Origin: Candidatus Aquidulcis sp.
GTDB lineage: Bacteria; Chloroflexota; Anaerolineae; UBA4142
Reading direction: 5' to 3'
Assembly (NCBI GenBank): GCA_020723345.1
Contig: DYJA01000036.1
Location: 24,141-57,879, forward strand
Length of the DNA stretch: 33,739 nucleotides
The translations under genes were made by a program, and so were the position numbers. The notes below the pieces were generated by a model, which saw only the letters and a list, made by a program, of their open reading frames with translations, had not been told where the DNA came from and did no database searches. Numbering within the stretch: the stretch's first letter is position 1; each line of letters starts with the position of its first letter. This document shows, in pieces, positions 4,464 to 33,550 of the stretch.

Positions 4464-4495
4464 TGCAACGCAGTCTGTTTCTGAGGATTGACAAC

Positions 4496-6916: not shown

Positions 6917-7792
6917 ATGAAAACAATCTCCGCCATTCCAAACAAAAAACTCATGTTCGACAAAGCAACCACCCGATCTAAAATCGTGATCAGACCCACG
7001 CGCGGGTGGGCATCGTTACGACTCTACGATCTTTGGCAATATCGCGAGTTGCTCTATTTTCTCGTGTGGCGCGATGTCAAGGTGCGTTACAAACAAACTG
7101 TTTTGGGAGTCGGGTGGGCGATTCTGCAGCCGCTCTTAACGATGGTAGTATTCACCGCTGTCTTTGGCGGTTTCGCCAAAATTCCATCAGACGGCGTGCC
7201 CTATCCCATTTTTTCTTTCGTCGCGCTGCTGCCCTGGAACTTTTTCTCCAGCGCGTTCAGCCGCGCGGGGAATAGTCTCGTCGGCAGCGCGAATTTGATC
7301 AGCAAAGTGTACTTTCCCCGGCTGGTCATCCCCATCGCGGCGACTCTCGGAGGAGTGGTTGACTTTGGCATCGGTTTCGTGATCTTGCTGCTGATGATGT
7401 TGTACTATGGCATTTATCCGACCTGGTTGATTTGGACCTTGCCGTTGTTTCTTCTACTTGCGCTCGCGGTTGCTTTAGGCCTCGGCTTGTGGCTAGCCGC
7501 GCTGAATGTGCGCTATCGCGATGTTGGGTATGTAATTCCATTTCTGGGGCAACTCTGGATGTACGCCTCACCCATCGCCTATCCTTCAAGTCTCGTGCCT
7601 GAACATTGGCGAACACTCTACAACTTGAACCCCATGGTCGCAGTCATTGAAGGGTTTCGCGCGTCGTTGCTAGGCACGGCGATATTAGATTGGACTTCCC
7701 TGGTTGCTTCAGCCGTCCTGGCAACTGCATTAGTAGCTTCCGGCGCATTTTACTTCCGCCGCACCGAGAAGACTTTTGCCGATGTGGTATAA
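6917..7792 (+). CDS. wzm: Polysaccharide ABC exporter, permease subunit (Wzm/ABC2-type)
   Basis: The 291-residue inner-membrane protein has the ABC-2 export permease layout: an amphipathic N-terminal stretch, then YRELLYFLVWRDVKVRYKQT, which is characteristic of Wzm/TagG/KpsM relatives. GVGWAILQPLLTMVVFTAVF opens the first membrane helix, and five more helices follow. The family segment LNVRYRDVGYVIPFLGQLWMY and the end NPMVAVIEGFRASLLG are also present. The start is ATG 6917 with AAGGA 3 nt upstream. It overlaps the ATPase gene by one base (TAATG), so the two are translationally coupled. It pairs with that ATPase to move lipid-linked glycan across the membrane. Confidence 0.93.
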   Translation: MKTISAIPNKKLMFDKATTRSKIVIRPTRGWASLRLYDLWQYRELLYFLVWRDVKVRYKQTVLGVGWAILQPLLTMVVFTAVFGGFAKIPSDGVPYPIFSFVALLPWNFFSSAFSRAGNSLVGSANLISKVYFPRLVIPIAATLGGVVDFGIGFVILLLMMLYYGIYPTWLIWTLPLFLLLALAVALGLGLWLAALNVRYRDVGYVIPFLGQLWMYASPIAYPSSLVPEHWRTLYNLNPMVAVIEGFRASLLGTAILDWTSLVASAVLATALVASGAFYFRRTEKTFADVV

Positions 7793-9091: not shown

Positions 9092-10348
9092 ATGGCGATC
9101 CGAAAACTAGCGTTTATCGATCATCGCGCCAACATCGGGGGAGGACGGCGTTTTTCCGCATCGTTGGTCAACGCGCTCGCCGAGGCAACGCCCCCAAGTG
9201 AAATCCGGCTGATCGCGACGCGTGAAGCATTGGACGGGCGCGCTTTCGGAGAGATCGCATCTCCTTCGATCAAGCTCAGTGGCCTGGTCACAGAGGAAAC
9301 GGTGCGGCGATGGATTCCCGACGGGCGGGTGCGCGGCATCCCAGGAACCTGGCGGCTCAAGTCTGCCATACAGACTGCGCTATTGAAGAGTGTTTATCGC
9401 TTTGACCGACAATTAGAACGCTCAGTTCAGGACGCTGAATTGGTTTATCTCGCGTGGCCCTACTTTATCGATTACCAAAACTTTGGGAAACCTGTCGTTG
9501 CAACTTTGCACGACGTGACGTGGAAATACACCGAGGCATTCACGGCGGAACAGCAAGCGACGCTGGATACGCACATCCCGCGCTGGTTATCCGAATGTGC
9601 TGCCGTGGTCACCAGCACCAACTTTATGCGCCAGGAAATTGAGAGAATCTATCCCCAACGCGCCAAGCGCGTTCACGTGATCCCTCTGCCGACCAACCCT
9701 TTGCCGCAGCCGATGTTGGGGACGCACGCGGCGGAATTTTTGACGCAACGAAATATCCACCAACCTTTTGCGCTTTGTCCTGCGGGATTGTGGCAGCACA
9801 AAAATCACGAAAATCTGATCCAAGCGTTTGCGCGGCTGAAACGGAGACGCCTCACATTGTCGCTCGTATGTACCGGTCTCCACACCGATGAGGCGTTCGG
9901 CGCGATGACGCGCAATCCGATCTGGGAACGCGCCAAATGCCTACGCCGCCAGGCAATCGACCTGGGTTTGGTTCCAGGCGTCGACGTCATCGGACTCGGT
10001 CACGTAAGCGATCTGGAATTGGCAACTCTTTATTCGACGGCGCAAGGGTTAGTGATGCCCGTCCTGCTTGAAGCCGGTAGTTTTCCGATTCTCGAAGCCG
10101 CGGCGCAGGGAGTACCGCTTGCTTGCTCCAACATTCCGGTCTATCGCGAGCAAGCAGAATTGTATGGCTTACATCCTTTTTATTTTGATCCGCGGTCGCC
10201 GGAAACCATCGCGGATGCGGTGGAGCAACTCGTCCAGATCGCACATGCGGCAGAAGAATTGACGGCGGCGGCGCAGCGAGTTCACGCAAGAACGTGGCTC
10301 GATGTGGCGAAAGAGTACCTCCAAGTTTTCGAGTCGGTGGTTGGATGA
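9092..10348 (+). CDS. GT4-family glycosyltransferase
   Basis: The 418-residue product is a GT-B fold retaining glycosyltransferase. The N-terminal acceptor domain opens with KLAFIDHRANIGGGRR (5-20), carrying the glycine-rich loop. The C-terminal donor domain has GLWQHKNHENLIQAF (232-246) and the paired acidic motif E-x7-E at E327 and E335 (LEAGSFPILEAAAQGVP). Donor and acceptor sugars are unknown. ATG 9092 has no clear ribosome site and follows wzt by 31 nt, so coupling to upstream translation is likely. The end overlaps the next gene by 4 nt (ATGA). It is cytoplasmic, building the chain before export. Confidence 0.88.
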   Translation: MAIRKLAFIDHRANIGGGRRFSASLVNALAEATPPSEIRLIATREALDGRAFGEIASPSIKLSGLVTEETVRRWIPDGRVRGIPGTWRLKSAIQTALLKSVYRFDRQLERSVQDAELVYLAWPYFIDYQNFGKPVVATLHDVTWKYTEAFTAEQQATLDTHIPRWLSECAAVVTSTNFMRQEIERIYPQRAKRVHVIPLPTNPLPQPMLGTHAAEFLTQRNIHQPFALCPAGLWQHKNHENLIQAFARLKRRRLTLSLVCTGLHTDEAFGAMTRNPIWERAKCLRRQAIDLGLVPGVDVIGLGHVSDLELATLYSTAQGLVMPVLLEAGSFPILEAAAQGVPLACSNIPVYREQAELYGLHPFYFDPRSPETIADAVEQLVQIAHAAEELTAAAQRVHARTWLDVAKEYLQVFESVVG

Positions 10349-10977
10349 ATATGCCAAGCATTCCCTTGTATATTTTCGGCTCATCTGGACACGCGCGCGA
10401 AATCGCGGCGTACTTTCGTTTGCTCAACGCGCAGCGTCCGATCATTTTCGTCGATCAAAAGGTCGAGTCCGGCGACTGCGTTTCGGTCCACGAGTATCGG
10501 CGCCGGATCCAAAACGGCGAGCCCGGCGAGTCGATTTTGGGATCGGGACGCTGCGAAGTACGCCGCCGAATGCTCGCGGAAATGCTGCCGCCTTACGCGA
10601 CCATCGTTCATCCATCTGCCGTGATCCTGGGCGAAATCGGACCGGGGTGCGTGATCGCGCCGAACGCGGTGATTGCGCCCAATGCCCGACTAGACGGACA
10701 CGTGCTTGTGAATTATAATGCGACTGTCGGACATGACACCCGGGTCGGGATGCTGAGCGTGATTGGACCGACCTCCGCCATTGGCGGATTTTGCATTCTC
10801 GAAGAAGGCGTGTACGTTGGAGCCGGAGCGGTGATTCGCGAACGTTTGATCATTCATGCAGGAGCGATCGTTGGAATGGGCGCGGTGGTCACGCGCGAGA
10901 CGCTTGCCAATTCGATTGTGGCGGGTGTGCCGGCGCGCGAAATGGAACCGCGCCCCGGCAAACGCAGGTGGCTCTGA
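10345..10977 (+). CDS. PglD/NeuD-family sugar N-acetyltransferase (left-handed beta-helix)
   Basis: The 210-residue product has a small Rossmann-like N-terminal domain (LYIFGSSGHAREIAAYF, 8-24), as in PglD/NeuD/PerB proteins. Hexapeptide-repeat coils then run from ~residue 87 to 197 (VILGEIGPGCVIAPNAVIAP). The motif NYNATVGHD (123-131) places the conserved catalytic histidine at H130. The family N-acetylates the 4-amino group of UDP-2-acetamido-4-amino-trideoxyhexose or GDP-perosamine with acetyl-CoA. ATG 10345 overlaps the upstream stop; ATG 10351 is an alternative. The matching aminotransferase begins one base after its stop codon, which strongly supports a two-step aminate/acetylate module. 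Which nucleotide (UDP or GDP) is used is not decided by the sequence. Confidence 0.88.
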   Translation: MNMPSIPLYIFGSSGHAREIAAYFRLLNAQRPIIFVDQKVESGDCVSVHEYRRRIQNGEPGESILGSGRCEVRRRMLAEMLPPYATIVHPSAVILGEIGPGCVIAPNAVIAPNARLDGHVLVNYNATVGHDTRVGMLSVIGPTSAIGGFCILEEGVYVGAGAVIRERLIIHAGAIVGMGAVVTRETLANSIVAGVPAREMEPRPGKRRWL

Positions 10978-10978
10978 G

Positions 10979-12100
10979 ATGTCTACTCCCTCGGTGACCC
11001 AGGTTCGCTGGATTCCCGTCGCTGAACCGGCGCTCGTCGGAAACGAAAAGGCGTACGTCAACGATTGCCTAGATTCGTCATGGATTTCTTCGAATGGCAA
11101 ATACATCGAACGCTTTGAAAAATCCTTCGCCGAATTCTGCGGGGTCAATCACGCGATTGCCTGCGCGAACGGCACCGTCGCGTTGCACGCCGCGCTGCTT
11201 GGGCTAGGTGTCCAACCCGGCGACGAAGTGATCGTTCCGACACTGACCTACATCGCGACCGCGAATGCCGTCACGTACTGCGGCGCCAAACCAGTGTTTG
11301 CGGATTCCGAATTGAACACGTGGAATATCGATCCAGCGTTGATCGAATCCAAGATTACGGAACGCACCAAGGGAATCATTCCCGTGCATCTGTACGGGCA
11401 TCCGGTAAACATGGAACCACTTTTGGACATTGCGCGGCGACACAATCTCTTTGTCCTCGAAGATGCCGCCGAAGCCCATGGCGCAACCTACAAAGGGGAA
11501 AAAGTTGGCGCGTTAGGTCATGCTGCCGTTTTTAGTTTTTACGGGAACAAGGTCATCACCACCGGCGAAGGCGGCATGATCGTCACAGACGATGCCGCGC
11601 TGGCGGCGAGAATGCGTCAAATCAAAGGGCAAGGCATGGATCCCCAACGACGCTATTGGTTCCCGATGATCGGCTACAACTATCGGATGACCAATATCGA
11701 AGCGGCGATTGGCTTGGCGCAATTGGAACAAGTCGATTGGCACATTGAGCGCCGCCGCGAAAATGCCCGGTGGTACAGGGAATTCTTGCGGGATTGCCGC
11801 GCCTTGATCCTGATGCCGGAACTGCCGTGGGCGGCAAGCGTGTTCTGGCTATTCTCGGTAGTCTTGAAAACCGAGACAGGTATTTCTCGGGATGACGTGA
11901 TGACAAGACTCTGCGATCACGGAATCGAGACACGTCCATTCTTTTATCCGCTGCACACCTTGCCGGTGTACGCCGAGCAAGCCCAGTATCCCGTTGCCGA
12001 AATGCTCGCTGCCCATGGAATAAATCTCCCGTCGTCAGCCAAACTTGCGCGCGCCGACGTGGAGTATATCTGCGATTGTCTAAAAGCGATTGTGACGTGA
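10979..12100 (+). CDS. DegT-family sugar 4-aminotransferase (PglE / perosamine synthase-like)
   Basis: The 373-residue PLP enzyme has EDAAEAHGA (161-169) and FSFYGNKVITTGEGGM (185-200), with the Schiff-base lysine at K191. The run GQGMDP...YWFPMIGYNYRMTN is strongly reminiscent of GDP-perosamine synthases and of PglE-type UDP-4-amino-sugar synthases. It would convert a 4-keto-6-deoxy nucleotide sugar to the 4-amino sugar with glutamate. The start is ATG 10979, one base after the acetyltransferase stop; a longer reading from 10856 would overlap that gene by 122 nt and is rejected. The 4-keto substrate could come from the dehydratase domain encoded at the end of the run (30965-33550). No GDP-mannose dehydratase is seen here, which favours the UDP-sugar reading. 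Confidence 0.88.
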   Translation: MSTPSVTQVRWIPVAEPALVGNEKAYVNDCLDSSWISSNGKYIERFEKSFAEFCGVNHAIACANGTVALHAALLGLGVQPGDEVIVPTLTYIATANAVTYCGAKPVFADSELNTWNIDPALIESKITERTKGIIPVHLYGHPVNMEPLLDIARRHNLFVLEDAAEAHGATYKGEKVGALGHAAVFSFYGNKVITTGEGGMIVTDDAALAARMRQIKGQGMDPQRRYWFPMIGYNYRMTNIEAAIGLAQLEQVDWHIERRRENARWYREFLRDCRALILMPELPWAASVFWLFSVVLKTETGISRDDVMTRLCDHGIETRPFFYPLHTLPVYAEQAQYPVAEMLAAHGINLPSSAKLARADVEYICDCLKAIVT

Positions 12101-20923: not shown

Positions 20924-22033
20924 ATGAAAATTGCTTTTCTCCATTTCTGGACCTTCCGCCTGCGGCGCGGCGTCGAAACACTGGTCGTGAGTCTAGCCAA
21001 CGAATTGTCCAAGCGAAACCTGGATGTGAGTATTGTGACCGCGCGGCAAACGCAAACGCCCTTGATTACGCCGTCGCCTCAAGTTCGCGTCAAACAATTT
21101 CCGACTTTTCGCTATTATGAGTTTGTCACCATCGTCCCGTTTTACGCGTTCGATCTGCTGCGCGAACAGTACGACGTCGTCGTCACCTTCTTCGCCGATT
21201 TCGGCGAAGGCGCGGCGCTGCGCGCGGCATCATTGCGGAATCGTTCGCGCCTCTTCCTCTACCTGACCTTTCCGTACCACGGCGCGCCGCATCGCTACTC
21301 GGCGTACCGACAGTGGGGCTGGGACAAATCTGCCGCGCACATTCTGGCGGACGCCGAATTCACCGCGCGAGTGGGCGAAGAATTTTTCCATCGCCCGATT
21401 TCCGTTCTGCCGAGCGGAACCGACCCAAGGCGATTTTTCCCTAACGCCGAAAGACGCGCCGCGCTGCGCCGCGCGTTCGGCTTTGCCGATCACGATGTCG
21501 TGTTGCTCAATGTTGCCGCGCTCGAACGACGCAAGGGCGCGTGGCGCGTGATCGAAGCGCTGCCGCAACTGCGCGAACGCTGCCCCAATCTTCGCTACTT
21601 GATCTTGGGCGACGGCGACGAGCGCGCGAATTTGCAGCGTCGCGTCGAGGAACTGGGTCTGACGCGCAATGTGATCTTTGCCGGGACGACGACGGAGTTG
21701 CCCGCGTTCTACAATGCCGCCGATATTTTCGTGATGCTGCCGGACGCGGAAGCCGGTTCGATTGCGTGTCTGGAAGCGATGGCATCCGGTTTGCCGGTCG
21801 TGGTTTCCAACACCGGCGGTTTTGCCGAAGCGGTCAATTCACAGACAGGGCGGATCGCGGATCTCAATAACCCAGGAACAATTGTCGAGCAAATTGCCGA
21901 GTTAGCGCGCGATGAAGACTTGAGGCAAAATCTCGGCGCGGCAGGACGCCAAGTGGTGATCGAGAAATTTTCTTGGGAACGGATCGCGGACAAGTTTCTC
22001 AATCTGTGTCGGCAATCGGCTTACCATGAATAA
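20924..22033 (+). CDS. GT4-family glycosyltransferase
   Basis: The 369-residue GT-B enzyme (ATG 20924) begins MKIAFLHFWTFRLRRGVETL. The middle has VLPSGTDPRRFFP (161-173), the usual domain hinge. The donor domain has VVLLNVAALERRKGAWRVIEAL and LILGDGDERANLQRR, and a full E-x7-E at E276/E284 (AEAGSIACLEAMASGLPVV). The gene overlaps the following GT2 gene by 8 nt. Specificity cannot be read. Confidence 0.89.
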   Translation: MKIAFLHFWTFRLRRGVETLVVSLANELSKRNLDVSIVTARQTQTPLITPSPQVRVKQFPTFRYYEFVTIVPFYAFDLLREQYDVVVTFFADFGEGAALRAASLRNRSRLFLYLTFPYHGAPHRYSAYRQWGWDKSAAHILADAEFTARVGEEFFHRPISVLPSGTDPRRFFPNAERRAALRRAFGFADHDVVLLNVAALERRKGAWRVIEALPQLRERCPNLRYLILGDGDERANLQRRVEELGLTRNVIFAGTTTELPAFYNAADIFVMLPDAEAGSIACLEAMASGLPVVVSNTGGFAEAVNSQTGRIADLNNPGTIVEQIAELARDEDLRQNLGAAGRQVVIEKFSWERIADKFLNLCRQSAYHE

Positions 22034-22925
22034 AGGTTTCTCCGTCCTGATCTGCACCTATAACCGTCCGCAATTGCTTAGACAGTGCCTTGTCGCGCTC
22101 GTCGACAAAACTGTGGAAAAACCGGACGAGATCGTGATCGTGAACGGCGGCGACCAACAGGCAGATCGGGTGGCGCAGGAATTTGCCGGTCGATCTGGAA
22201 CCCAAGTGCAGTTGATCAAAACCGTGAACAGAAATCTTGCTGCCAGTCGGAATGTGGGCTTGCCGCATTGCTCCGGCGATCTGATCGCGATGACCGACGA
22301 TGACGCGCAAGTTTTTCCAGATTGGGTAACCCAAATGAAACGCGCACACCGCGAACATCCAGAAGCCGGCGCCATCGGCGGCGCGGTCATCGGGACAGAC
22401 ACGGAATCACTGATCGGCCGCTTGTCTGATCTGGTTACCTTTCCATCTTGGGGATCGCCGCGCTATGTTCGCACCTTGCCCGGGGTCAACATTTCGTACA
22501 AACGCCAAGTCGTCGAACGCGTCGGGCTTCAAGATGAGACGTTGTTTCGCGGGGAGGATGTGGATTGGAATTGGCGCGTGGGGCAACTCGGCGGCTCAAT
22601 CTATTTCGACCCCAGAATCCGTGTCTATCATCATCACCGCTCAACCTTGGGCGCATTCCTGCGTCAGCATTACATGTACGGGCGCGCCTATTATCTTGTC
22701 CGACGCAAGTGGGAGCAGATGTACTGTGTGTATCCTCATCACCTCCGGCGCCCCCAAGATGTTCTTAAGGCAATCAACTTTTTCGCCGCCATGTTCTACG
22801 AACCGCTACTCTATCTGCCGCGTCTGCAACGTCATGCCGATCGAGTGCTGGCATATCCTTTGTTGCTAGCAAACCAGATTGCGTGGCGCGGCGGAATGAT
22901 CAAAGAGAAACTTACCGCGCGATGA
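22026..22925 (+). CDS. GT2-family glycosyltransferase
   Basis: The 299-residue GT-A enzyme starts FSVLICTYNRPQLLRQCL (5-22), the nucleotide-binding opening of GT2. The metal-binding acidic cluster is DDD at 91-93 (MTDDDAQVFPDW). RGEDVDWNWRV provides the catalytic-base region (ED motif). The C-terminal part (FFAAMFYEPLLYLPRL and AYPLLLANQIAW) is hydrophobic and may attach it to the membrane. It overlaps the upstream gene by 8 nt and the downstream acetyltransferase by 4 nt (ATGA). It would add a sugar with inversion; donor unknown. Confidence 0.88.
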   Translation: MNKGFSVLICTYNRPQLLRQCLVALVDKTVEKPDEIVIVNGGDQQADRVAQEFAGRSGTQVQLIKTVNRNLAASRNVGLPHCSGDLIAMTDDDAQVFPDWVTQMKRAHREHPEAGAIGGAVIGTDTESLIGRLSDLVTFPSWGSPRYVRTLPGVNISYKRQVVERVGLQDETLFRGEDVDWNWRVGQLGGSIYFDPRIRVYHHHRSTLGAFLRQHYMYGRAYYLVRRKWEQMYCVYPHHLRRPQDVLKAINFFAAMFYEPLLYLPRLQRHADRVLAYPLLLANQIAWRGGMIKEKLTAR

Positions 22926-23518
22926 AACACTTTATTCGATTATTGTTTCGTGCGGTGATTGGGGTTGCCTATCGCGCCTATCGCGCCGAAGGCATCAACG
23001 CTTTGTTGTTGCTAATGCCCGCCAAATTGATCGCGCCCACCCTCCGCCAGTATGGCGCAACGATCGGCGAGCGCGCCGAAATTCATTCGCCGTTGATCAT
23101 TCACAACGCAAGCACGGAATCCGGGCAGCATTACGCGCACTTGAATATTGCCGACGATTGCTACTTTGGACGCGAGGTGTTTTTTGATTTAAAAGACGAA
23201 ATCCGCGTCGAAGAGCGCGTGACTGTGTCCATGCGCGCAATGTTCCTAACGCACACGGATGTCGGCAAAAGCCCGCTCGCAGCGACGATCCGTCCGCATC
23301 ATGCGCCGATCGTCGTACGGCGCGGCGCATACATCGGCGCCGGCGCGATCATCTTGCAAGGTGTCGAGATCGGCGCCGAAACAGTCGTAGGTGCTGGAGC
23401 CGTGGTGATCGAAAGTGTCCCTGCGCACTCTGTCGTCGTCGGGGTACCCGCGCGCGCTGCAAGAACGTTGCAAGCCGGCGTGGCGATTCCGGATATTGCC
23501 GGAGAGGCAAGTCGATGA
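22922..23518 (+). CDS. Hexapeptide-repeat O-acetyltransferase (WbbJ/NodL type)
   Basis: The 198-residue product has a short N-terminal helix pair, then left-handed beta-helix coils (IGERAEIHSPLIIHN, then IVVRRGAYIGAGAIILQG and IGAETVVGAGAVV). The catalytic-type histidine lies in FLTHTDVG (H111). GVPARAARTL is the normal C-terminal turn. The family acetylates sugar hydroxyls with acetyl-CoA in the cytosol. The ATG 22922 start overlaps the GT2 stop; the frame opens earlier at 22883, but that start would overlap by 43 nt. It ends overlapping the Wzy/ligase gene by 4 nt. Unlike the PglD-type enzyme at 10345, it has no Rossmann N-domain, so O-acetylation is the more likely role. Confidence 0.86.
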   Translation: MKHFIRLLFRAVIGVAYRAYRAEGINALLLLMPAKLIAPTLRQYGATIGERAEIHSPLIIHNASTESGQHYAHLNIADDCYFGREVFFDLKDEIRVEERVTVSMRAMFLTHTDVGKSPLAATIRPHHAPIVVRRGAYIGAGAIILQGVEIGAETVVGAGAVVIESVPAHSVVVGVPARAARTLQAGVAIPDIAGEASR

Positions 23519-24909
23519 ACCCTGTGTATCGTTTTCTTCCACGCCTTTCACCTGCTACACTAATCATCGTGGGCGTTGCGGCTGGCATTGCGTTTCTCAT
23601 CGGACCATTAATGCGGTTAGGGAAAATCGGTACGCGCGAGATGGTCATCCTGATATTTGGCTTTGCGATGGCCATTCTCGTACTGATTCCGTCCAAGCGG
23701 GTGCTCAAACTCGGCATGGTGATCTGGATCGTGACGTTCGGGTTGGGTTGGCGCACCATTCACGTCACGAGCATCTTAAGCATTCACCCAGCGGTGGTAC
23801 TAGCGGTCTTGCTCTTTGTCGGTACGCTGATCCACGATCTCTTGTATCGCCGCCATACCGATTTTTCCATTTCGATCTGGATTCCACTCCTAACCCTGTT
23901 TGCATTCTTAGGGATGCTTACGGCCTATGACCGTGGCACGCCTGTCGATCTCATCCTACAAGAGTCACAGGTTTTCTTAGCGCTCATTCCTGCCTATTAT
24001 GTGATCCGATGGAACGTCGAAACGCAACGTGACTGGGAAAACGTTGCGCGATGGCTGATCGTCGTCGCCGTGTACGTTAGCTGCCTTGGCTTGCTTGACT
24101 TGGTCGCGCCAGATGTGAGCCGACGGCTTTCCGGCAACGAATCAATTGATACGGTGTACATGACAACGCAGGGCATTGGGCGCGCCATGTTTATTTTCTA
24201 CGGAAGCCCTATCGCAGGATTTCTAATCTATATGTTCTTTGGACTCACGGCGCACTTTTTCTTGACGAGTCTCCAACACGGCGGAATTGTGCGTTGGATC
24301 AGTGCGCTCGCCCTGCTGGCTGAACTCGCAGGAATTTATCTGTGCGGTTACCGTGGAGCGTACTATGCCCTAGGAGTATTTTTGCTTGTCTACGCCGTGA
24401 TCCTTCCGCGTGCCAAGATTCTACTTGCGGCTGGGATCGCAGGACTTCCACTTCTGCCTGAAGAATTTTATCTGCGCGTTATCTCGCTGATAGACACACG
24501 TTATGCGGATTCGAGCCAGTTCAAGCGGATTGATCGTGCGACTCAGGCGTTTGATCTGGTCAAGCAATTCCCACTCACTGGTGTGGGGTTTGGCGGCAGC
24601 GGGTACGTTCATAGTGATTTCGTCCAAATTGCTGCCAATCTCGGTGTCCCTGCGTTGGGTATTTTTCTCGTGTGGATTGCTAGCGTGATGTGGCGTCTAT
24701 TCCGAATCGCCCGGCAAGCCAATTGGATTGGTGAGTACGCCGGCGCCTTGTTCGCCACATTCTGCGGCTTGCTGGTTACATTTGCCGGGGAGGGGCTGAT
24801 CGTACTGCCCCAGCTTATGGTGCCGATCTGGTTTATGGTTAGCATGGCTCTCAAGTTGGTCGATTTGCACAAACAAGCGGAAGCACCCAGTCGAACCCTT
24901 GCAACTTGA
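23515..24909 (+). CDS. O-antigen ligase/polymerase-family membrane protein (WaaL/Wzy-like)
   Basis: The 464-residue product has about eleven hydrophobic helices and a large outer loop (~310-380) with the family signatures. These include CGYRGAYYAL (277-286, with conserved Arg280), R...TQAFDLVKQFPLTGVGFGGSG and VHSDFVQIAANLG (His366), typical of the Wzy_C/O-antigen ligase superfamily. Such proteins either polymerise repeat units or transfer lipid-linked glycan to an acceptor on the outer face. No Wzx flippase is in the window, and export is by an ABC system, so a ligase role (glycan to cell-surface acceptor) is the simpler reading. Polymerase cannot be excluded. ATG 23515 overlaps the upstream stop. 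CGCG words are sparse compared with the GT genes. Confidence 0.84.
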   Translation: MNPVYRFLPRLSPATLIIVGVAAGIAFLIGPLMRLGKIGTREMVILIFGFAMAILVLIPSKRVLKLGMVIWIVTFGLGWRTIHVTSILSIHPAVVLAVLLFVGTLIHDLLYRRHTDFSISIWIPLLTLFAFLGMLTAYDRGTPVDLILQESQVFLALIPAYYVIRWNVETQRDWENVARWLIVVAVYVSCLGLLDLVAPDVSRRLSGNESIDTVYMTTQGIGRAMFIFYGSPIAGFLIYMFFGLTAHFFLTSLQHGGIVRWISALALLAELAGIYLCGYRGAYYALGVFLLVYAVILPRAKILLAAGIAGLPLLPEEFYLRVISLIDTRYADSSQFKRIDRATQAFDLVKQFPLTGVGFGGSGYVHSDFVQIAANLGVPALGIFLVWIASVMWRLFRIARQANWIGEYAGALFATFCGLLVTFAGEGLIVLPQLMVPIWFMVSMALKLVDLHKQAEAPSRTLAT

Positions 24910-24914
24910 TCGCA

Positions 24915-26927
24915 ATGAAATGGAAATTCAGCATAGTGCGTCGCTTTTGGTCTGAATACGGCATATTCATCGTTTTGCTTTTGGCGTTTGCGATTCAGTT
25001 TGCCCTACTTGATGCGCGCACATTACATGGAGATGAATTCGGCAGCATCAATGAGGCAAAGCAACTCGGGCGGAATTTCAATTCGGTTCTTTACTTTGCG
25101 ACTTTGAACGCATGGCTCTCTCTGGGAGACGGAGAATTCTGGCTGCGTTCACCGTCTGCCCTAGCCACGGTATTCACCGGCGCGGTGACATTTACGTGGG
25201 TCAAGTTAGCATACGGCAAGGAAGCCGCAACTGCGACAGCGCTTTTGCTCGCCACCAATCCGTTCCTGATCGTCTATGGACAGCAGATCCGGTTTTATGG
25301 CTTTGCTTTGGTTACCGCCAGTCTTTCCGTGTGGGCATTTATCTATTATTTAAAGCACGGAACTCTTCGAGCGATAGCCCTGTGGGGCATTGCCAGCCTG
25401 CTCGCCGTGACCACACTCTTATTGAACGGGCTGCTATTGCTGTGCCAGGGCATTACGGTATTCTTTTTGAGCCAGCTATCCGCACGGCGTAAGATTGTCA
25501 TCGTCGGACTAGTTGTTGTTACGGCAATTCTACTAGTCGCGCTTCCGGCTGTGCGTCAGTTTGCTTTCGATACATTGGCGATCTATACAAATGCGGATTC
25601 ACGCTATTCCGCCTCGCGGGGATTGACCTTCACTCAGATCGTGAAGATTCCGGCGACTGGATTCTTTTTCATATTCGGCGAATCGGTCTATCCTCTCACC
25701 TACTGGCTTGTCATTCCTGGAATATGCCTTTGGGGCGTTGCTTTCGCTATCGGTGCGCGCAGGGTATGGCAAAATCGGCAGGTGGCTGTTTTCATCGCCC
25801 TGTCCCTGGTGATTGCCCCGTTGCTCCTCTATCTTGTGTTCGATCCATTGTCTCCCCCGACATTACAAGGCGCCGCACCGCGCTACCTGATCTTTCTTCT
25901 GCCGTTACTCATCGTACTTGGCGCGGCAATGAGACAATCAAAAATAGCGACCTGGGTAACGGTATCTCTACTCCTCGTGAATCTGAGTTCCCTGCTATTC
26001 TACTGGTATGGAGACTGGGCTTATACCGATGACCGGATTGACTGGCGCGGAGTAACGCGCTGGGTCAGTAATCACATTACAGCACAGACAAGCGTGCTCT
26101 TGGATGGACGTGCTCAAGAAGTTGCAAGTCGCTATTTTCCGCCCGCCTGGAACCAATCGAGTCTGTGGACTTGGGAATCCAATGGCACGAACGATCTCGC
26201 TGAGACTCAACGCATTATCGTGATCAGCAATGATTTCCACCAAGAGAGACGAAGCCAAACAACCGCGCTAATGCGCGAACTCGAGAAAAATTACATCCGC
26301 TCCGATGTCTGGGCGAACTATCCGACTTTCATCTATGTTTATGATCGCGCAGACAATCACGCTGGCACGTATCGCGTCGATCGCGTGACCGGTTCTGTGA
26401 ATCTTCCCGTAGAAATCTACGGATTGGAATTCCAAGATATCCATTTGCCCGTCGCAGTCAATCTTAAAGGACGCTCCACACAGATTTCAGGCGCGTTGAG
26501 ACTCTTCGATCAAAACAGTCCAACTTCTCGAATGTTACCCCTGGCAAAGCCGACCTCCGTACATAGCGTGTGGCTCTTGAGTAATATGACAGAAGCGCAG
26601 GGATTGAAGTTGGGCACACTCGTTGCCAACTTGAAATTAATCGCGGACGATAATTCGTTTCATACACTCCCGATCCGATACGGGGTTGAGACGAGCGCGT
26701 GGAATGAACGCTGCCAAACGGCGACATGCTCAAGTATCTATTCATGGCACAAGCGGATCGCTCTGCTCGGAACTGAGCGATACCCCGAAAGTTGGAAAGA
26801 CTTTGAAGCATTCATATTCGCCGGCAAGTTGATCTTGCCTAATCCTATATCCATTCGCGCCCTTGAGTTCAAGCGCGTTGAATCCCCTGGGACCCTGTAC
26901 ATCTGGGGCATGATGTTCGAACCATGA
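24915..26927 (+). CDS. GT-C membrane glycosyltransferase (ArnT/PMT-like) with large external C-terminal domain
   Basis: The 670-residue product has an N-terminal hydrophobic helix followed by LDARTLHGDEFGSINEA (32-48). Its Asp40-Glu41 match the first-loop acidic pair of GT39/GT83 transferases, which use polyprenyl-phosphate sugars on the outer face. About ten more helices run to ~residue 370. The last ~295 residues are soluble. Their final part (488-670) is beta-rich, with VHSVWLLSNMTEAQG, GTLVANLKLIADDN, LPIRYGVETSAWNE and a C-terminal LYIWGMMFEP, recalling galactose-binding-like sandwiches. ATG 24915 is 5 nt after the ligase stop; a TTG at 24906 is possible. It ends in ATGA overlap with the next gene. 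It would modify the exported glycan or a surface protein. Confidence 0.8.
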   Translation: MKWKFSIVRRFWSEYGIFIVLLLAFAIQFALLDARTLHGDEFGSINEAKQLGRNFNSVLYFATLNAWLSLGDGEFWLRSPSALATVFTGAVTFTWVKLAYGKEAATATALLLATNPFLIVYGQQIRFYGFALVTASLSVWAFIYYLKHGTLRAIALWGIASLLAVTTLLLNGLLLLCQGITVFFLSQLSARRKIVIVGLVVVTAILLVALPAVRQFAFDTLAIYTNADSRYSASRGLTFTQIVKIPATGFFFIFGESVYPLTYWLVIPGICLWGVAFAIGARRVWQNRQVAVFIALSLVIAPLLLYLVFDPLSPPTLQGAAPRYLIFLLPLLIVLGAAMRQSKIATWVTVSLLLVNLSSLLFYWYGDWAYTDDRIDWRGVTRWVSNHITAQTSVLLDGRAQEVASRYFPPAWNQSSLWTWESNGTNDLAETQRIIVISNDFHQERRSQTTALMRELEKNYIRSDVWANYPTFIYVYDRADNHAGTYRVDRVTGSVNLPVEIYGLEFQDIHLPVAVNLKGRSTQISGALRLFDQNSPTSRMLPLAKPTSVHSVWLLSNMTEAQGLKLGTLVANLKLIADDNSFHTLPIRYGVETSAWNERCQTATCSSIYSWHKRIALLGTERYPESWKDFEAFIFAGKLILPNPISIRALEFKRVESPGTLYIWGMMFEP

Positions 26928-27706
26928 ATGCAAATCAACCTCAATTGTCCATCTTGGTGCCAACCTTCAACAACGAAAAAATCATCCGCGACTGCCTCGA
27001 ATCGGTGAAATGGGCGGACGAAATTCTCGTCGCCGACTCGTTCAGCACCGATCGTACGCTGGACATTTGCCGCGAGTACGGCGCGCGCATCATTCAGCAC
27101 GAGTACGTTCAATCGGCGAAGCAAAAGAATTGGGCGATCCCGCAATGCGCGCACGCGTGGATTTTGCAAATCGATACCGACGAGCGATTGGAACAAGGCG
27201 CGCGTGAAGAAATCATTAACGCGATCGCCAACGCGCCCGACGACCTAAACGTCTTTCGCATTCCGCGCAAGAACCACATCCTCGGAACCTGGTTGCAAGT
27301 TTCCAATCTCTATCCCGATTACCAGACGCGTCTCTTCCGGCGCGACCTCGCGCGGTTCGAAGACAAAGAAGTTCACGCGCACATCCGCGTTCCCGGACAA
27401 GTCGGCACACTGCAACACCATCTTTTGCACTATGGCATGACTTCGCTGAGCAAACAACTGATGAATCTGGATCGCTATTCGCGTTATCAAGCCGACGAAC
27501 TGAAAAAGCGCGGCAAACATTTCCACTGGTACCAACTCGTGTTCCGACCCGTTGCCATTTTCGCGTACTATTACTTTTGGAAACGCGGTTTCACCGCGGG
27601 TTATCGCGGCTTGCTGATTTCGGCAATCAGCACGACCTTCGATTTTTGGGCGCACGCCAAACTATGGGAGATCGAAACATTCAATCTGCCCGCCAGTCCC
27701 CGTTAG
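26924..27706 (+). CDS. GT2-family glycosyltransferase (WaaE/KdtX-like)
   Basis: The 260-residue product has QLSILVPTFNNEKIIRDCLE (7-26), then WADEILVADSFSTDRTLDIC (30-49) and QKNWAIPQCAHAWILQIDTD (67-86). The metal-binding pair is D84-T-D86. This order, with the diagnostic DSxSTDxT and LQxDxDE blocks, is the WaaE/KdtX-type subgroup that adds glucose-like residues to LPS cores or glycan chains. The C-terminal part has a hydrophobic stretch (VFRPVAIFAYYYFWKRGF) that may be membrane-associated. ATG 26924 overlaps the GT-C stop. The acceptor is unknown here, and a Chloroflexota cell would not be expected to have a classical LPS core. Confidence 0.86.
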   Translation: MNANQPQLSILVPTFNNEKIIRDCLESVKWADEILVADSFSTDRTLDICREYGARIIQHEYVQSAKQKNWAIPQCAHAWILQIDTDERLEQGAREEIINAIANAPDDLNVFRIPRKNHILGTWLQVSNLYPDYQTRLFRRDLARFEDKEVHAHIRVPGQVGTLQHHLLHYGMTSLSKQLMNLDRYSRYQADELKKRGKHFHWYQLVFRPVAIFAYYYFWKRGFTAGYRGLLISAISTTFDFWAHAKLWEIETFNLPASPR

Positions 27707-28887
27707 CGCAAATTGCGTTTGTTCACGCCGCGGCGCAGATGAGCGGCGTCGAATTCAGCACACTGAACTTGCTCGCGCAACTCGACCGCGCGCGCTGGCT
27801 GCCGCTAACGATTTGTCCCTCCGAAGGCGACTTGCCGACGCGCAGTCGCGCCGCCGGAGTCGAGACCGCCATCGTGCCCATCCAGAATTTTCGTTCGACG
27901 AGTACGCGGCTTGCCGGTCGCACCATCGCGAATCCCTTTGCCCTCGGCGCGAACATGCGCGCGTTGTTCGTCAGCGCGCGCGAACTTGCGGCATTTCTCC
28001 GCGCGCGGCGTCCCGCTCTCGTCGTCACCAAAGGTTTGTTCGCACATCTGTACGGTGGACTCGCCGCGCGCTGGGCAAGGATCCCGTGCGTGTGGCACGT
28101 CCAAGATCGCGTCTCGAATCGTTTGGGTCCCATATTTCCCTGGACACTCGCGTTTGCCGGGCGCGTCCTCGCGCGCGAGATCATCGTGGACGCGGAGAGC
28201 ATCGCGCGGCAACTCACCCCCATCGTTCCTTCCAAGCGTGTAACTGTGATCTGGAATGGGGTAGACACCCATGTATTTTTTCCACAAGCCGCCCACTCTT
28301 ATCTAAGAGAAGAATGGCACGCCAACGACAGCGATTTGCTCATCGGCGTCATCGGACGGCTGACTCGTTGGAAGGGTCAGCACGTTTTGATTCAAGCCCT
28401 GGCGAAGATCGCCGATGAGTTTTCGAACGCGCGCGTAATCGTGATCGGCACGCCCCTTTTCGATAACGATTTGTACGCGCAGTCGTTGCGCGATGATGTA
28501 GCCCGCTTGGGTTTGCTTGAGCGAGTCGTCTTCGCCGGTTTCCGCTGGGATTTGCCCGCCGCGTTGGCGGCGCTCGACATCGTCGCGCATACCGCGTTGG
28601 AGAAGGATTCGACGCCACTCGCAGTTGTCTCCGCGATGGCGTCCGGCAAGCCGATTGTGTGTACACGCGTCGACGGGACGGCGCAACTGTTCGACGAAGG
28701 CGTCGATGGATTTCTGGTTCCACCCGGCGACGCGGACGCGCTCGCCCAACAACTCCGCAGTCTTTTGCAGAACACCGATATGCGCGATCGCTTGGGACGC
28801 GCCGCGCGCGTCAAAGCCGAACGCGAGTTGAGCATTGAGCAATTCGCGCGGCGCTGCGAATCCGTGTTCGAACGTGCATTGCCATGA
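27664..28887 (+). CDS. GT4-like glycosyltransferase with degenerate acidic motif
   Basis: The 407-residue product from ATG 27664 overlaps the upstream gene by 43 nt; no nearer in-frame start codon was seen. Family order is clear: IAFVHAAAQMSGVEFSTLNL (17-36), hinge VTVIWNGVDTHVFFP, donor domain IGVIGRLTRWKGQHVLIQAL (227-246), DEGVDGFLVPPGD. In place of E-x7-E it has D315 and S323 (KDSTPLAVVSAMASGKPIV), so neither Glu is kept in the aligned positions. It may be a variant donor-binding enzyme or a catalytically weak partner of another GT. The rest of the fold is complete and in frame, so it is not a decayed pseudogene. Confidence 0.82.
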   Translation: MGDRNIQSARQSPLAQIAFVHAAAQMSGVEFSTLNLLAQLDRARWLPLTICPSEGDLPTRSRAAGVETAIVPIQNFRSTSTRLAGRTIANPFALGANMRALFVSARELAAFLRARRPALVVTKGLFAHLYGGLAARWARIPCVWHVQDRVSNRLGPIFPWTLAFAGRVLAREIIVDAESIARQLTPIVPSKRVTVIWNGVDTHVFFPQAAHSYLREEWHANDSDLLIGVIGRLTRWKGQHVLIQALAKIADEFSNARVIVIGTPLFDNDLYAQSLRDDVARLGLLERVVFAGFRWDLPAALAALDIVAHTALEKDSTPLAVVSAMASGKPIVCTRVDGTAQLFDEGVDGFLVPPGDADALAQQLRSLLQNTDMRDRLGRAARVKAERELSIEQFARRCESVFERALP

Positions 28888-29873
28888 AACTCCTATTCGT
28901 CCACAATCACCAAACACGATTCGTTCAGATAGACCTTTCCCTCTTGCGCGAACGCTACCAAGTGGAGGAGTGGTATCAGGATAGTCGAGCAGTCAATCTG
29001 CCCAAACTAACTCGTTCGCTGAGCCAAAATGATCTGGTCGTTGGCTGGTTCGCCAGTTGGCACACTTTATTCCCGGTGTTGCTCGCGCCGATTCTCAAGC
29101 GTCCATCGATTCTGATTGTTGGCGGATACGACACGGCGAACCTGCCGGAGATCGGGTATGGCAGCCAGCGCGGCGGCATCAAGCGTTGGATGGCGCGCGC
29201 GACAATGCGTTTCGCCTCGCGCTTGATCACCAACTCGTTCTACGCGCGCGACGAAGCCGTTCGCAACGCCGGCATTGCCCCAGGCAAAATCACCGTAATC
29301 CATCACGGATTCGATGCCACAGACTTGCCTTGCAGCACTGGCAAAGAAAATATGGCACTTACGGTGGGAAATGTCGATCGGGATAATCTCCAACGCAAAG
29401 GTCTGGCGCCCTTTGTTCATGCGGCAGCGTTGCTGCCGGATCTTCCATTCGTTCTGGTTGGAGCGTGGCGCGATGGCGCGATTGAATATCTGCGGTCATT
29501 CGCTCCGGCAAACGTTCAGTTCACCGGCAGATTAGACAACGCGGCGTTATCCGCTTTGCTGGCGCGCGCGTGTGTGTACGTTCAAGCGTCGCGCCACGAA
29601 GCGTTTGGAATGGCGCTCGCCGAAGCGATGTTGTCCGAGTGCGTTCCCGTCGTAACACGCGCTGGCGCGCTGCCCGAAGTTGTCGGTGAGACGGGCATCT
29701 ACATCGACTCGGCAGAACCGCAAGTTGTAGCAGAAGGAATCCGCCACGCGCTCACTTGCGACGATGGCTGGGGCAAGCGTGCCCGTACGCGAATCATCAA
29801 CGAATTCCCATTAGAACGGCGACGACAAGGATTATATTCCGCAGTCGAAAAAACGCTGGAGCAGCATGGATAA
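28884..29873 (+). CDS. Short GT4-family glycosyltransferase
   Basis: At 329 residues it is 60-80 shorter than its GT4 neighbours, the loss being in the N-terminal acceptor domain. The opening MKLLFVHNHQTRFVQIDLSLL lacks the usual GGxE loop, and SNDLVVGWFASWH-like residues (47-60) follow early. The donor half is intact: ITVIHHGFDATDL, LTVGNVDRDNLQRKGLAPFV (159-178) and E-x7-E at E239/E247 (HEAFGMALAEAMLSECVPVV). It overlaps the upstream gene by 4 nt (ATGA) and the downstream GT2 by 8 nt. The shortened acceptor domain suggests a different acceptor, perhaps a lipid-linked one. Confidence 0.87.
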   Translation: MKLLFVHNHQTRFVQIDLSLLRERYQVEEWYQDSRAVNLPKLTRSLSQNDLVVGWFASWHTLFPVLLAPILKRPSILIVGGYDTANLPEIGYGSQRGGIKRWMARATMRFASRLITNSFYARDEAVRNAGIAPGKITVIHHGFDATDLPCSTGKENMALTVGNVDRDNLQRKGLAPFVHAAALLPDLPFVLVGAWRDGAIEYLRSFAPANVQFTGRLDNAALSALLARACVYVQASRHEAFGMALAEAMLSECVPVVTRAGALPEVVGETGIYIDSAEPQVVAEGIRHALTCDDGWGKRARTRIINEFPLERRRQGLYSAVEKTLEQHG

Positions 29874-30906
29874 GCCACCGCTGGTGACGATCATCATGCC
29901 GGTTCGCAATGAGGGACGGCACATCGCGCGCGCGCTCGAGGCGGTGCTCAATCAGGATTATCCGCGCGAGCGCATGGAAATTCTCGTAGTGGACGGCATG
30001 TCCAGCGATGACACGCGCCCCCTCGTCCAAGCGTTTGCGACGCGCGACCCGCGCCTGCGGTTGCTCGATAACCCAGAGCGCATCGTGCCGACCGCGCTGA
30101 ATCGCGGAATCTACGCCGCGCGCGGCGAGGTGATCATCCGCGTCGATGGACACGCCGAAATCGCGCGAGACTATGTGCGCCGCTGCATCGAAGGTTTGGC
30201 GCAAGTTGACGCGGAGTGTATCGGCGGTCCGATTGCGACAGTCGGCGAGACCTGGATTGCGCGTGGAATTGCGATCGCGCAAAGTTCACCTTTCGGCGTC
30301 GGCAACGCGGCTTTTCGCTATTCCAACCGCGCCCAGTACGTCGATACACTGGCGTTTGGCGCGTATCGCCGCCGAGTCTTCGACCGCATCGGCGTGTTCG
30401 ACGAAGAACTGATTCGCAATCAGGACGACGAATTCAATTTTCGACTCGTCCAGGCGGGAGGAAAAATCTGGCTCGCTCCGTCAATTCGTTCGACGTATTA
30501 TTCGCGCGCGTCGCTGCGCGGGCTGGGCAAACAGTACTTTGAGTACGGTTTCTGGAAAGTGCGCGTGATCCAGAAACATGGACGCCCCGCCTCGTGGCGG
30601 CATGTGGTTCCCGTCACATTCGTCCTGGCTCTGACCGCTTCGCTGGTAGTGAGTTTGTTCACGCCATTCTCATTTGGATTCTTCGCGGTGCTGTTGCCCT
30701 ATCTCGCGGCTTCATTGGCGATGTCGGTGTGGCTAGGCGCGCGCCACGGCTGGTCCTATGTGGCTCTGTTGCCGCTTGCCTTTGGTACGCTGCACATCGC
30801 GTATGGCATGGGATTCTTAGTGGGATTGTTCCATTTTGGCTTGCGGCGAAATGCGCGTCCGGTTGGGCTGCGCCGAGATGAACGGCTGGGAACGACGTCG
30901 CGCTGA
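29866..30906 (+). CDS. GT2-family membrane glycosyltransferase (ExoA-like)
   Basis: The 346-residue product has a GT-A domain opening VTIIMPVRNEGRHIARALEA (7-26). The acidic metal site is in IRVDGHAEI (91-99). The ExoA-type block SPFGVGNAAFRYSNRAQYVD (141-160) is followed by DTLAFGAYRRRVFDRIG and by RNQDDEFNFRL (184-194), which holds the catalytic base. Three C-terminal helices (~250-268, 271-291, 298-323) anchor it in the membrane. ExoA-like enzymes add a glucose-type residue to lipid-linked oligosaccharide. ATG 29866 has GGAG 4 nt upstream. The 58-nt gap to the last gene is the longest in the run and shows no terminator. Confidence 0.89.
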   Translation: MDKPPLVTIIMPVRNEGRHIARALEAVLNQDYPRERMEILVVDGMSSDDTRPLVQAFATRDPRLRLLDNPERIVPTALNRGIYAARGEVIIRVDGHAEIARDYVRRCIEGLAQVDAECIGGPIATVGETWIARGIAIAQSSPFGVGNAAFRYSNRAQYVDTLAFGAYRRRVFDRIGVFDEELIRNQDDEFNFRLVQAGGKIWLAPSIRSTYYSRASLRGLGKQYFEYGFWKVRVIQKHGRPASWRHVVPVTFVLALTASLVVSLFTPFSFGFFAVLLPYLAASLAMSVWLGARHGWSYVALLPLAFGTLHIAYGMGFLVGLFHFGLRRNARPVGLRRDERLGTTSR

Positions 30907-30964
30907 GTCGGCTCAAGATCGTATCGGTAAAAACACGCCACTGTTTTCTTATTCGGAGACCAAC

Positions 30965-33550
30965 ATGAAACGCCTATTTGATTTTCTAACTGCTCTGATC
31001 GGTTCGATCGTGCTCTCGCCCCTCTTCGCGATTGTCGCCCTTGCCATCAAATGCAATTCGCGCGGTCCGGTGTTCTTTCGCGGCGAACGCGTCGGTAAAG
31101 ACGGCAAACTTTTTCGGATTTTCAAATTCCGAACGATGGTCGCGAACGCCGCCGAGTTGGGCGGCGCAATTACGCACCGCGGCGATCCGCGCGTCGATCG
31201 CTTGGGGCGCATCCTGCGCCGCACCAAGATCGACGAACTCCCCCAGTTGATCAATGTTGTCCGGGGCGAGATGAGTTTGGTCGGACCGCGCCCCGAGGTG
31301 GAGCGCTATACCAAACTCTATAACGAACATCAAAAGCGGGTCCTGACCGTTCGACCGGGCATTACGAGCATTGCGTCGATCCGCTATCGCAGCGAAGAAC
31401 AACTCCTCCCGGCGGACGCGTGGGAAAAAGTTTATACGCAAGTCGTCCTGCCCGCCAAACTCGACATCGAACTAAAATATCTGTCGACGCGCACTTTCGG
31501 TCAGGATCTGTTGATCTTGTTCTCCACCTTGTTTGCCATTGCCGGGGACGAGGTGCATTTTGACGTGTGGGCGCAAGCGATTAGCCAGCTGGAAGAATTC
31601 GTCGGGCGCTATATCCAGTGGAATTTGGTAGACGCCGTGCTGATCCTGATCGCGTTTACCCTCGCGCTGGCGGTCCGGTCAATCAACGCGTCGCTTGACT
31701 TTTCCTTGGCGCTCTTGTATGCTGTCGGTGGCATCTTCGTCTACATCTCATTGAACTATCGTTTCGGGATCTATCAGCGCTTTTGGCGCTACGCGAGTGG
31801 ACAAGAATCGACGGCGCTGTTCGGCTCCATTTTCACGGCGACGGTCTTTCTTGGCGCCGTCGATCTGTTCCTCGAGGAACGCGTGCTTCCTTTGGGGGCA
31901 ATCGGACTCGGCGGGTTTTTCTCTTTCTGTTTGCTCGCCGCCGCGCGCTATCGCCGCAAAATTGCGCGCGGGATCTATGAACAGTTGCGGGATACGCTTG
32001 GTTTTGCTTCCGGTCAGGGCGCGCGCGTTCTCGTCGTCGGCGCGCGCGACGCGGGGCAGTTGCTCGTTTGGCAGTTGCAAAATCATATCAACGCGTACCA
32101 AGTCATCGGATTTGTGGATGACGACCGGGATAAGCACGGCATGCGGATTCACAATGTGCCCGTCTACGGCAGCCGCTACGAAATTCCGGCGCTGGTCGCC
32201 CGGTTGCACATCGATCTGATCATCATCGCGATCCCACTCTCCCGCGCCACCAAGCCGGAAGAACTCTTGGCGCTTTGTCGTTCCAGTTCTGCCCAGATCA
32301 AAGTTCTCCCTGGATTGTTCGAATGGCTCGACAAAAACGGGAAAACCTTGCACTGGACGGATTTGCCGGAAGAAGAATTGCTCCAGCGCACGCCCTACCA
32401 AGTTGACGAAGCATCGTGCCGTCGGCTCCTGAACAATCGGGTGGTGATGGTGACTGGCGCGGCGGGCTCAATCGGCAGCGAACTCTCACGGCAGATCGCA
32501 GCGCACCAGCCGCAGCGCTTGGTGTTGGTGGACATTAACGAGAGCGGTTTGTACGATTTGAAGGTGGAACTGCAAACCAAATACAAAGGTCTGTGCGTGG
32601 ACGCGGCGTTGTGCGACATCACAAATCAAGTCCGTTTGCGCGTCGTGTTCGAACGGGCGCTGCCCCAGATCGTTTTCCACGCGGCGGCGTACAAACACGT
32701 TCCGATTTTGGAACAACACCCTCAGGAAGCGATTCGCGCGAACATTCAGGGGACGCGGACGGTGCATTCGCTGGCTGAGACTTTTGGGGCAGAGCGTTTC
32801 GTTTTGATCTCCACCGACAAAGCCGTCAACCCGACGAGCGTGTTGGGTATGACGAAATGGCTCGCCGAATTGATCGTCATCTCCTCGTCGCGCGCCAGCC
32901 CGATGCTTTCGACAACCGTTCGGTTTGGCAATGTCCTGGGCAGCCGGGGCAGTGTGATCCCAACTTTCGAAAAACAAATCGAACTCGGAGGACCGATCAC
33001 GATCACCCATCCCGATATGTCCCGCTACTTTTTGAGCACCAACGAGGCGGTCAGTCTGACGATTCAGACGGCGACGATTACGCGCGGAGGGGACATTTAC
33101 ATCTTGGATATGGGCGTCCCGGTGCCCATCGCCGATCTCGCGCATCGGATGATTCGCGCGCACGGCTTGCGCCCCGGTCAGGATATTCCCATCGAATATG
33201 TGGGCGTCCGGCCCGGGGAAAAATTGTACGAGGAACTCGTCGCGCGCGATGAAGAAAAAATCGGTACCGACAATCCATCCATCCAACAGATTCACCGGAC
33301 CGCGCCCTTGAATCTCATCGATTTCGACGAACGACTCGACGGGCTGATCGCCTTCAGCGAAAATGGCGCGACGCCGGAACAAATCCATATTGAATTGGAA
33401 CGCTTCGTTCGATCCTTGCAAGCGCCCGATCACCAAACACCAATCGCGTGGATGCCGCGGAGCCGCCCAAACGAAGCCGCCGCGCCGAGTTCCATCTACG
33501 ACAACTCGGTCAATGCGTCGGCGGGCATTTCTCCACTGTACTCACAATAA
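30965..33550 (+). CDS. Fused PglC-like phosphoglycosyl transferase and PglF-like UDP-HexNAc 4,6-dehydratase
   Basis: This is one 861-residue product in a single frame. Residues 1-~190 are a monotopic sugar-phosphate transferase: re-entrant helix with the Ser18-Pro19 break, FKFRTM (54-59), catalytic dyad Asp90-Glu91 in KIDELPQLINVVRGEMSLVG, GPRPE, and PGITSIASIR. It would load a sugar-1-phosphate on a polyprenyl phosphate. Residues ~218-330 hold four helices. A Rossmann CoA-binding-like domain (VLVVGARDAG, 355-364) follows. The dehydratase domain has VTGAAGSIGSE (496-506), the STDKAVNPT catalytic block with T617-D618-K619, K631 and RFGNVLGSRGSVI. ATG 30965 has GGAG at 30955-30958 and starts at the family N-terminus MKRLFDF; the frame opens upstream at 30836 without family sequence. 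The dehydratase would supply the 4-keto sugar for the aminotransferase at 10979. Confidence 0.93.
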   Translation: MKRLFDFLTALIGSIVLSPLFAIVALAIKCNSRGPVFFRGERVGKDGKLFRIFKFRTMVANAAELGGAITHRGDPRVDRLGRILRRTKIDELPQLINVVRGEMSLVGPRPEVERYTKLYNEHQKRVLTVRPGITSIASIRYRSEEQLLPADAWEKVYTQVVLPAKLDIELKYLSTRTFGQDLLILFSTLFAIAGDEVHFDVWAQAISQLEEFVGRYIQWNLVDAVLILIAFTLALAVRSINASLDFSLALLYAVGGIFVYISLNYRFGIYQRFWRYASGQESTALFGSIFTATVFLGAVDLFLEERVLPLGAIGLGGFFSFCLLAAARYRRKIARGIYEQLRDTLGFASGQGARVLVVGARDAGQLLVWQLQNHINAYQVIGFVDDDRDKHGMRIHNVPVYGSRYEIPALVARLHIDLIIIAIPLSRATKPEELLALCRSSSAQIKVLPGLFEWLDKNGKTLHWTDLPEEELLQRTPYQVDEASCRRLLNNRVVMVTGAAGSIGSELSRQIAAHQPQRLVLVDINESGLYDLKVELQTKYKGLCVDAALCDITNQVRLRVVFERALPQIVFHAAAYKHVPILEQHPQEAIRANIQGTRTVHSLAETFGAERFVLISTDKAVNPTSVLGMTKWLAELIVISSSRASPMLSTTVRFGNVLGSRGSVIPTFEKQIELGGPITITHPDMSRYFLSTNEAVSLTIQTATITRGGDIYILDMGVPVPIADLAHRMIRAHGLRPGQDIPIEYVGVRPGEKLYEELVARDEEKIGTDNPSIQQIHRTAPLNLIDFDERLDGLIAFSENGATPEQIHIELERFVRSLQAPDHQTPIAWMPRSRPNEAAAPSSIYDNSVNASAGISPLYSQ

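Follow-up and report, generated by a model that had tools for sequence, protein, structure and literature searches.

The window analysed here, a stretch of 33,739 nucleotides from a Candidatus Aquidulcis sp. of the Chloroflexota (Anaerolineae), can be read from its genes as a polysaccharide locus, and it carries near its end a single gene in which an initiating phosphoglycosyl transferase (PGT) is joined to a PglF-type nucleotide-sugar dehydratase. The features concerned are the following:

4463-5767 (+): DegT aminotransferase (ArnB/PseC-like), candidate partner, from sequence searches
6917-9057 (+): Wzm/Wzt-type ABC polysaccharide exporter, two genes
10294-10974 (+): NeuD/PglB/VioB-type sugar acetyltransferase, candidate partner (TIGR03570, 150 bits, cut-off 161)
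10856-12097 (+): DegT aminotransferase (LegC/perosamine-synthetase-like), candidate partner (TIGR04181, 386 bits, cut-off 420)
20924-30906 (+): glycosyltransferases, a Wzy_C protein (23515-24909) and a PMT-like protein, up to the fusion, from domain searches
30955-30958 (+): Shine-Dalgarno-like GGAG, 6 nt ahead of the ATG at 30965, from the sequence
30965-33550 (+): PGT-PglF fusion gene, uninterrupted frame of 861 codons (861 aa)
30965-31540 (+): monotopic PGT domain, residues 1-192 (PF02397, Pfam E 2.1e-57; model compared with WbaP 8t53 and PglC 8e37)
30968-31057 (+): re-entrant membrane helix, residues 2-31, with a Ser18-Pro19 break, from sequence and model
31232-31237 (+): catalytic Asp90-Glu91, aligned with WbaP and relatives
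31286-31294 (+): Pro-Arg-Pro (PRP) motif, residues 108-110, from sequence comparison
31550-31618 (+): linker, the first part of one predicted helix (residues 196-238) running into TM1, in frame with a relative from another genus
31619-31948 (+): four-helix membrane module, residues 219-328, from hydropathy and model
32021-32311 (+): soluble (Rossmann) part of PF13727, residues 353-449, from Pfam and model
32444-33292 (+): PglF-type dehydratase domain, residues 494-776 (PF02719, Pfam E 5.3e-101; PglF Z 45.8)
32813-32821 (+): Thr617-Asp618-Lys619, equivalent to T395-D396-K397 of PglF, from alignment
33446-33547 (+): disordered tail, residues 828-861 (pLDDT under 50)

The frame at 30965-33550 is translated into 861 residues without a stop and both domains are matched within it, which bears out the uninterrupted frame claimed in an earlier note on this DNA. 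A TTG at 30836 would offer a start further upstream, but a frame lengthened in this way would overlap the preceding gene, and the ATG at 30965 falls exactly at the usual start point of PGTs (MKRxFD). The contig and the window both end 189 nt past the stop codon.

Regarding the transferase half, the monotopic PGT profile PF02397 matches residues 2-192 with 194 bits against a cut-off of 27, and the model displays a helix at residues 2-16, a break and a second helix at residues 18-31, in line with the re-entrant helix of monotopic PGTs. Besides, Asp90-Glu91, Pro108-Arg109-Pro110, Lys54 and Arg85 are all present, so that the PglC-type dyad and the Ser-Pro break pointed out in the earlier note are both found, accompanied by the PRP motif. 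By their spacing, the PGT residues fit P24, K59, R88, D93-E94 and R111 of PglC, which are named in PMC12802240, while the Asp of the C-terminal KLxxD motif of most relatives is Glu169 in this fusion. A model of residues 1-202 (pLDDT 92) matches WbaP (8t53, Z 19.6) and PglC (8e37, Z 18.7), the next chain scoring 3.4. On sequence and model, this half looks competent.

The dehydratase half likewise looks competent from its motifs and predicted fold. Four membrane helices, PF13727 and PF02719 follow each other as in PglF, to which the full model compares with a Z of 45.8 over 337 residues (rmsd 1.9). As regards retaining versus inverting enzymes, it is closer to PglF than to the PseB-type structure 2gn4 (Z 35.5), and the sequence scores against the PDB amount to 237 bits for PglF and 124 bits for the inverting PseB. 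The NAD-binding GxxGxxG motif is present as GAAGSIG, and the Thr-Asp-Lys triad aligns with the three positions mutated in PglF structures, whereas the position of PglF M405 is a Leu, the SDR Tyr position being thus devoid of Tyr. Helices, Pfam matches, fold and motifs therefore agree on a full PglF/WbpM-type dehydratase with its own four helices, as the earlier note had proposed. A whole-genome scan indicates that the fusion is the sole PglF-type dehydratase of this genome; the other strong PF02719 match (C96) is a frame of 372 residues matching just the SDR part of the query. The full AlphaFold model has a pLDDT of 90.2 and a pTM of 0.64, and at this pTM the position of the domains with respect to one another is uncertain.

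Between the two catalytic domains sits one 4TM-PF13727 module, connected to the PGT by the predicted helix 196-238 and matched by PF13727 over residues 267-449 as a whole (E 4e-9). In a tree of the membrane modules, it sides with the dehydratase/permuted group and not with the large PGTs.

The same architecture was sought in a class sample of 396 genomes and a phylum sample of 400, complemented by a follow-up of long frames. Full-length PGT-4TM-PF13727-SDR proteins were found in G000, G120, G221, G324, G328, G032, G387, G536 and G667, and fusions cut by a contig end in G008 and in G544 (L138, which stops soon after the SDR domain begins), bringing the total for the phylum to at least 11 genomes; the 8 fusion-bearing genomes among the 396 of the class are a lower bound. 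The earlier note had asked whether the PGT-first order is known in this phylum: it is not unique to this genome, the PGT being N-terminal in every fusion seen. On the SDR-domain tree, the nine fused rows require at least six changes between the fused and unfused states, in a parsimony count that does not separate gains from losses, and a single ancestral fusion, with all fused rows in one clade, is rejected (AU p 2e-38). The fusion of G544 groups with unfused pairs of family f26 (support 100/99). It thus seems that, among related bacteria, the two enzymes were joined independently on at least six occasions. In unfused relatives, one of which came from a scan of the genome contigs, the PGT gene often lies directly 5' of the dehydratase gene, with overlaps of 4 nt (G077 and G104) or 11 nt (G006), or gaps of 24-131 nt in other pairs. 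Since such genes overlap or lie near each other, a small change would be enough to join them, and the fusion would have arisen from two neighbours in the order PGT-PglF. A match on a 'Subdoligranulum' plasmid, taken for a fusion by its coverage, is actually a 623-aa dehydratase without PGT domain and was discarded.

Several related architectures were also encountered. An SDR-less family of about 500-600 aa, PGT-4TM-PF13727, occurs in families f1, f29, f37 and f53 (L093, L096, L098-L107, L109-L111 and L118-L136, e.g. L074:9322-10950; L097 and L108 are fusions and not members). It forms one clade (100/100) in which the catalytic Asp is replaced by Asn in every sequence read, the other PGT motifs being kept. 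In most of the loci examined, these genes are followed by those of a LegB-like dehydratase, a nucleotidyltransferase and a DegT aminotransferase, and the Asn-Glu protein is the sole PGT seen in four of the 20-kb stretches read (L074, L139-L141); these proteins may be pseudo-enzymes or may catalyse a different chemistry. A common origin of the fusion and the Asn-Glu family has an SH-aLRT of 82 in the membrane-module tree and is not rejected by a combined test of PGT and membrane module (p 0.159), whereas a wider group that also takes in the G544 fusion is rejected (p 7e-7). A glycosyltransferase cluster homologous to window positions 22026-30906 is found in L073 and L074 (G013, and partly G007); it is followed by the Asn-Glu protein and a LegB-like dehydratase in G013, as in G007 over the stretch read, and by the fusion in the present genome, a difference that reads as the exchange of one initiation module for another at the same locus. 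Genome G032 carries, in addition to its monotopic PGT-PglF fusion, a 1024-aa protein (L145:1777-4851) in which a polytopic PGT (PF00953, WecA/MraY family, E 3e-33) is joined to a PglF-type dehydratase. The same two steps were thus fused once even with an unrelated PGT fold, and no second polytopic fusion was found in the 366 class genomes searched. Elsewhere, a C-terminal PGT follows a glycosyltransferase 2 or 4 domain (GT2-PGT and GT4-PGT, L073:3-1574 and L078:11023-12891), and a PglF-type dehydratase is extended at its C-terminus in one frame by Wzy_C (O-antigen ligase/polymerase) in L059, L060 and L062 (G453, G586 and G481). Pfam confirms the Wzy_C domain of L059 and of L060, and L062 has the same long frame.

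In the light of these data, we infer, with a probability of about 0.72, that the fusion acts as a bifunctional membrane enzyme within a surface-polysaccharide locus, its activities, the identity of its sugar and the benefit of the join all being read from sequence and model. PglF/EpsC is known to make a 4-keto sugar on which PglE/EpsN and PglD/EpsM act next, before PglC/EpsL loads the product, and in related pathways the dehydratase product is similarly aminated, acetylated and then loaded (PMC10653937); this order agrees with the earlier view of the fused halves as the first and last steps of sugar supply. More precisely, the C-terminal SDR domain would convert UDP-GlcNAc into UDP-2-acetamido-2,6-dideoxy-4-hexulose with bound NAD+, a separately encoded aminotransferase and then probably an acetyltransferase would finish the UDP-sugar, and the N-terminal PGT would transfer the sugar-1-phosphate to undecaprenyl phosphate through a covalent Asp90 intermediate, thereby starting the repeat unit. 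The candidate partners at 4463, 10294 and 10856, considered as the aminotransferase and acetyltransferase steps of a diNAcBac (PglFEDC) pathway, score just under or below the NCBIfam cut-offs, have their best PDB matches to other enzymes and lie about 19-26 kb upstream of the fusion, not adjacent to it; the true start of the one at 10856-12097 is probably further in. The aminotransferase at 4463-5767 is 77% identical to a gene located about 1.3 kb downstream of an unfused PGT-PglF pair in G005. The fusion gene of G328 is overlapped at its start by the gene of an aminotransferase, and G324 has an acetyltransferase, an aminotransferase and the fusion in direct succession. Candidate sugars are diNAcBac, FucNAc4N, another 4-amino sugar or a 4-reduced sugar.

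The idea that the fusion could channel the UDP-sugar did not hold as the main interpretation, since the intermediate must be released to the aminotransferase and the acetyltransferase. These two are encoded by separate genes of the same cluster, which makes a direct channel from one half to the other unlikely, and as the fused enzymes are first and last and hence non-consecutive, no hand-over from site to site is expected. Co-location, fixed stoichiometry or shared regulation most likely fits better: the value of the fusion would lie in a common position in the membrane, a 1:1 ratio of first and last enzyme, and possibly a common control by the 4TM-PF13727 module. Undecaprenyl phosphate is scarce, and it is the PGTs that commit it to a given pathway; how these enzymes are kept in step with the supply of donor sugar is poorly known. 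The recurrence of the fusion suggests that cells benefit from tying the two enzymes together, and the repeated convergent fusion of the committing enzyme with the first sugar-making one is evolutionary evidence for a functional tie.

In a first alternative, the PGT half would have no catalytic role and would instead anchor or regulate the dehydratase, the glycan being initiated by one of the several other PGTs of the genome. The two f64 fusions, L071:8786-11293 (G536) and L072:8464-11169 (G667), have lost the PGT dyad (ISALPE/IASLPE) while keeping intact dehydratase motifs; fusion therefore does not always keep an active transferase, which is why this alternative stays in consideration, and the Asn-Glu dyad of the SDR-less relatives points the same way. 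Nevertheless, the dyad, the Ser-Pro break, Lys54, Arg85, Arg109 and the PRP motif are all retained here and in G008, and the scan of window proteins turned up no further member of PF02397, so that an inactive PGT half is considered unlikely.

In a second alternative, the bifunctional enzyme would load an unfinished sugar, the 4-keto sugar passing directly from the dehydratase to the PGT, a true case of channelling, and amination occurring later on the lipid-linked sugar. Such a route would explain why exactly these two steps are joined, and recurrently so, yet no PGT with a 4-keto donor is known to us. In the characterised pathways, moreover, amination or reduction takes place on the nucleotide sugar, ahead of its loading (PMC10653937, PMC6441080), which makes this route distinctly improbable.

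There is also a slim chance that the one frame yields two proteins through internal initiation or proteolysis within the linker, given the GTG/TTG codons preceded by weak AGGA or GAGG sequences near residues 183-201; against this, the linker contains no ATG, the helix predicted across it is continuous and the joining of the domains recurs in other lineages. No stop or frameshift was found near residues 190-220, the place singled out in the earlier note. GC3 is even (0.60-0.80) along the whole frame, and the G008 protein, from a different genus of the same family, aligns without gap over residues 1-314, up to the end of its contig, with 6/20 identities in the linker and 19/20 around the dyad. 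Therefore, even though the genome is a draft of 132 contigs and a one-base error could join genes that overlap by just 4 nt as in unfused relatives, an assembly error or sequencing frameshift as the source of the fusion is very unlikely in view of the even GC3 and of a gap-free alignment through the junction with an independent assembly.

Returning to the bifunctional enzyme, its single middle module invites a further, tentative proposal. The PF13727 domain of WbaP binds UMP, UDP and UTP, WbaP is inhibited by UMP with an IC50 of 4.1 uM, and the occurrence of this module in both large PGTs and PglF-type dehydratases has been called puzzling (PMC10942596). It is possible, though doubtful, that one module serves both sites of the fusion by a WbaP-like sensing of uridine nucleotides that throttles dehydratase and transferase jointly, the hypothetical signal being UMP, the by-product of the PGT. 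If so, repeated PGT-PglF fusions would explain why large PGTs and PglF-type dehydratases have this module in common; as a single chain here holds two active sites with one PF13727 module lying between, such nucleotide feedback is directly testable.

As compared with known systems, the fusion shares the PF02397 fold, the re-entrant Ser-Pro helix, the Asp-Glu dyad and the PRP motif with PglC (C. concisus/C. jejuni), EpsL and CapM, which are stand-alone proteins of about 200 aa, and the 4TM-PF13727-PF02719 arrangement, the TDK motif and, for PglF, the fold with PglF, WbpM, CapD and EpsC, which lack a PGT. The large PGTs (Lg-PGTs) WbaP and WcaJ also unite PGT, 4TM and PF13727 in one chain, but in the reverse order, the 4TM-PF13727 part preceding the PGT, and without dehydratase, whereas the present protein begins with its PGT, and its module goes with the PglF side. 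In PglB of Neisseria, a bifunctional PGT, a monotopic PGT is likewise fused with an enzyme that modifies a sugar in its own pathway (PMC10942596, PMC6133551); its partner is a soluble enzyme of a late step, while that of the present fusion is the first, membrane-bound step. In the O-antigen locus of Shigella sonnei and in Deinococcus sp. QL22, the same two enzymes are adjacent but encoded by separate genes. Sugar-modifying enzymes are reportedly among the common PGT fusion partners described by O'Toole et al. 2021 (PNAS), which may include the PglF type. No description of a PGT-dehydratase fusion was found in the literature searched, O'Toole 2021 and Durand 2024 (PNAS) lying outside it. Bifunctional PGTs (Bi-PGTs) are a named class, in which a functional domain is attached to either end of the PGT core (PMC10942596), and with both domains in one frame the PGT-PglF fusion is filed as a new form within it.
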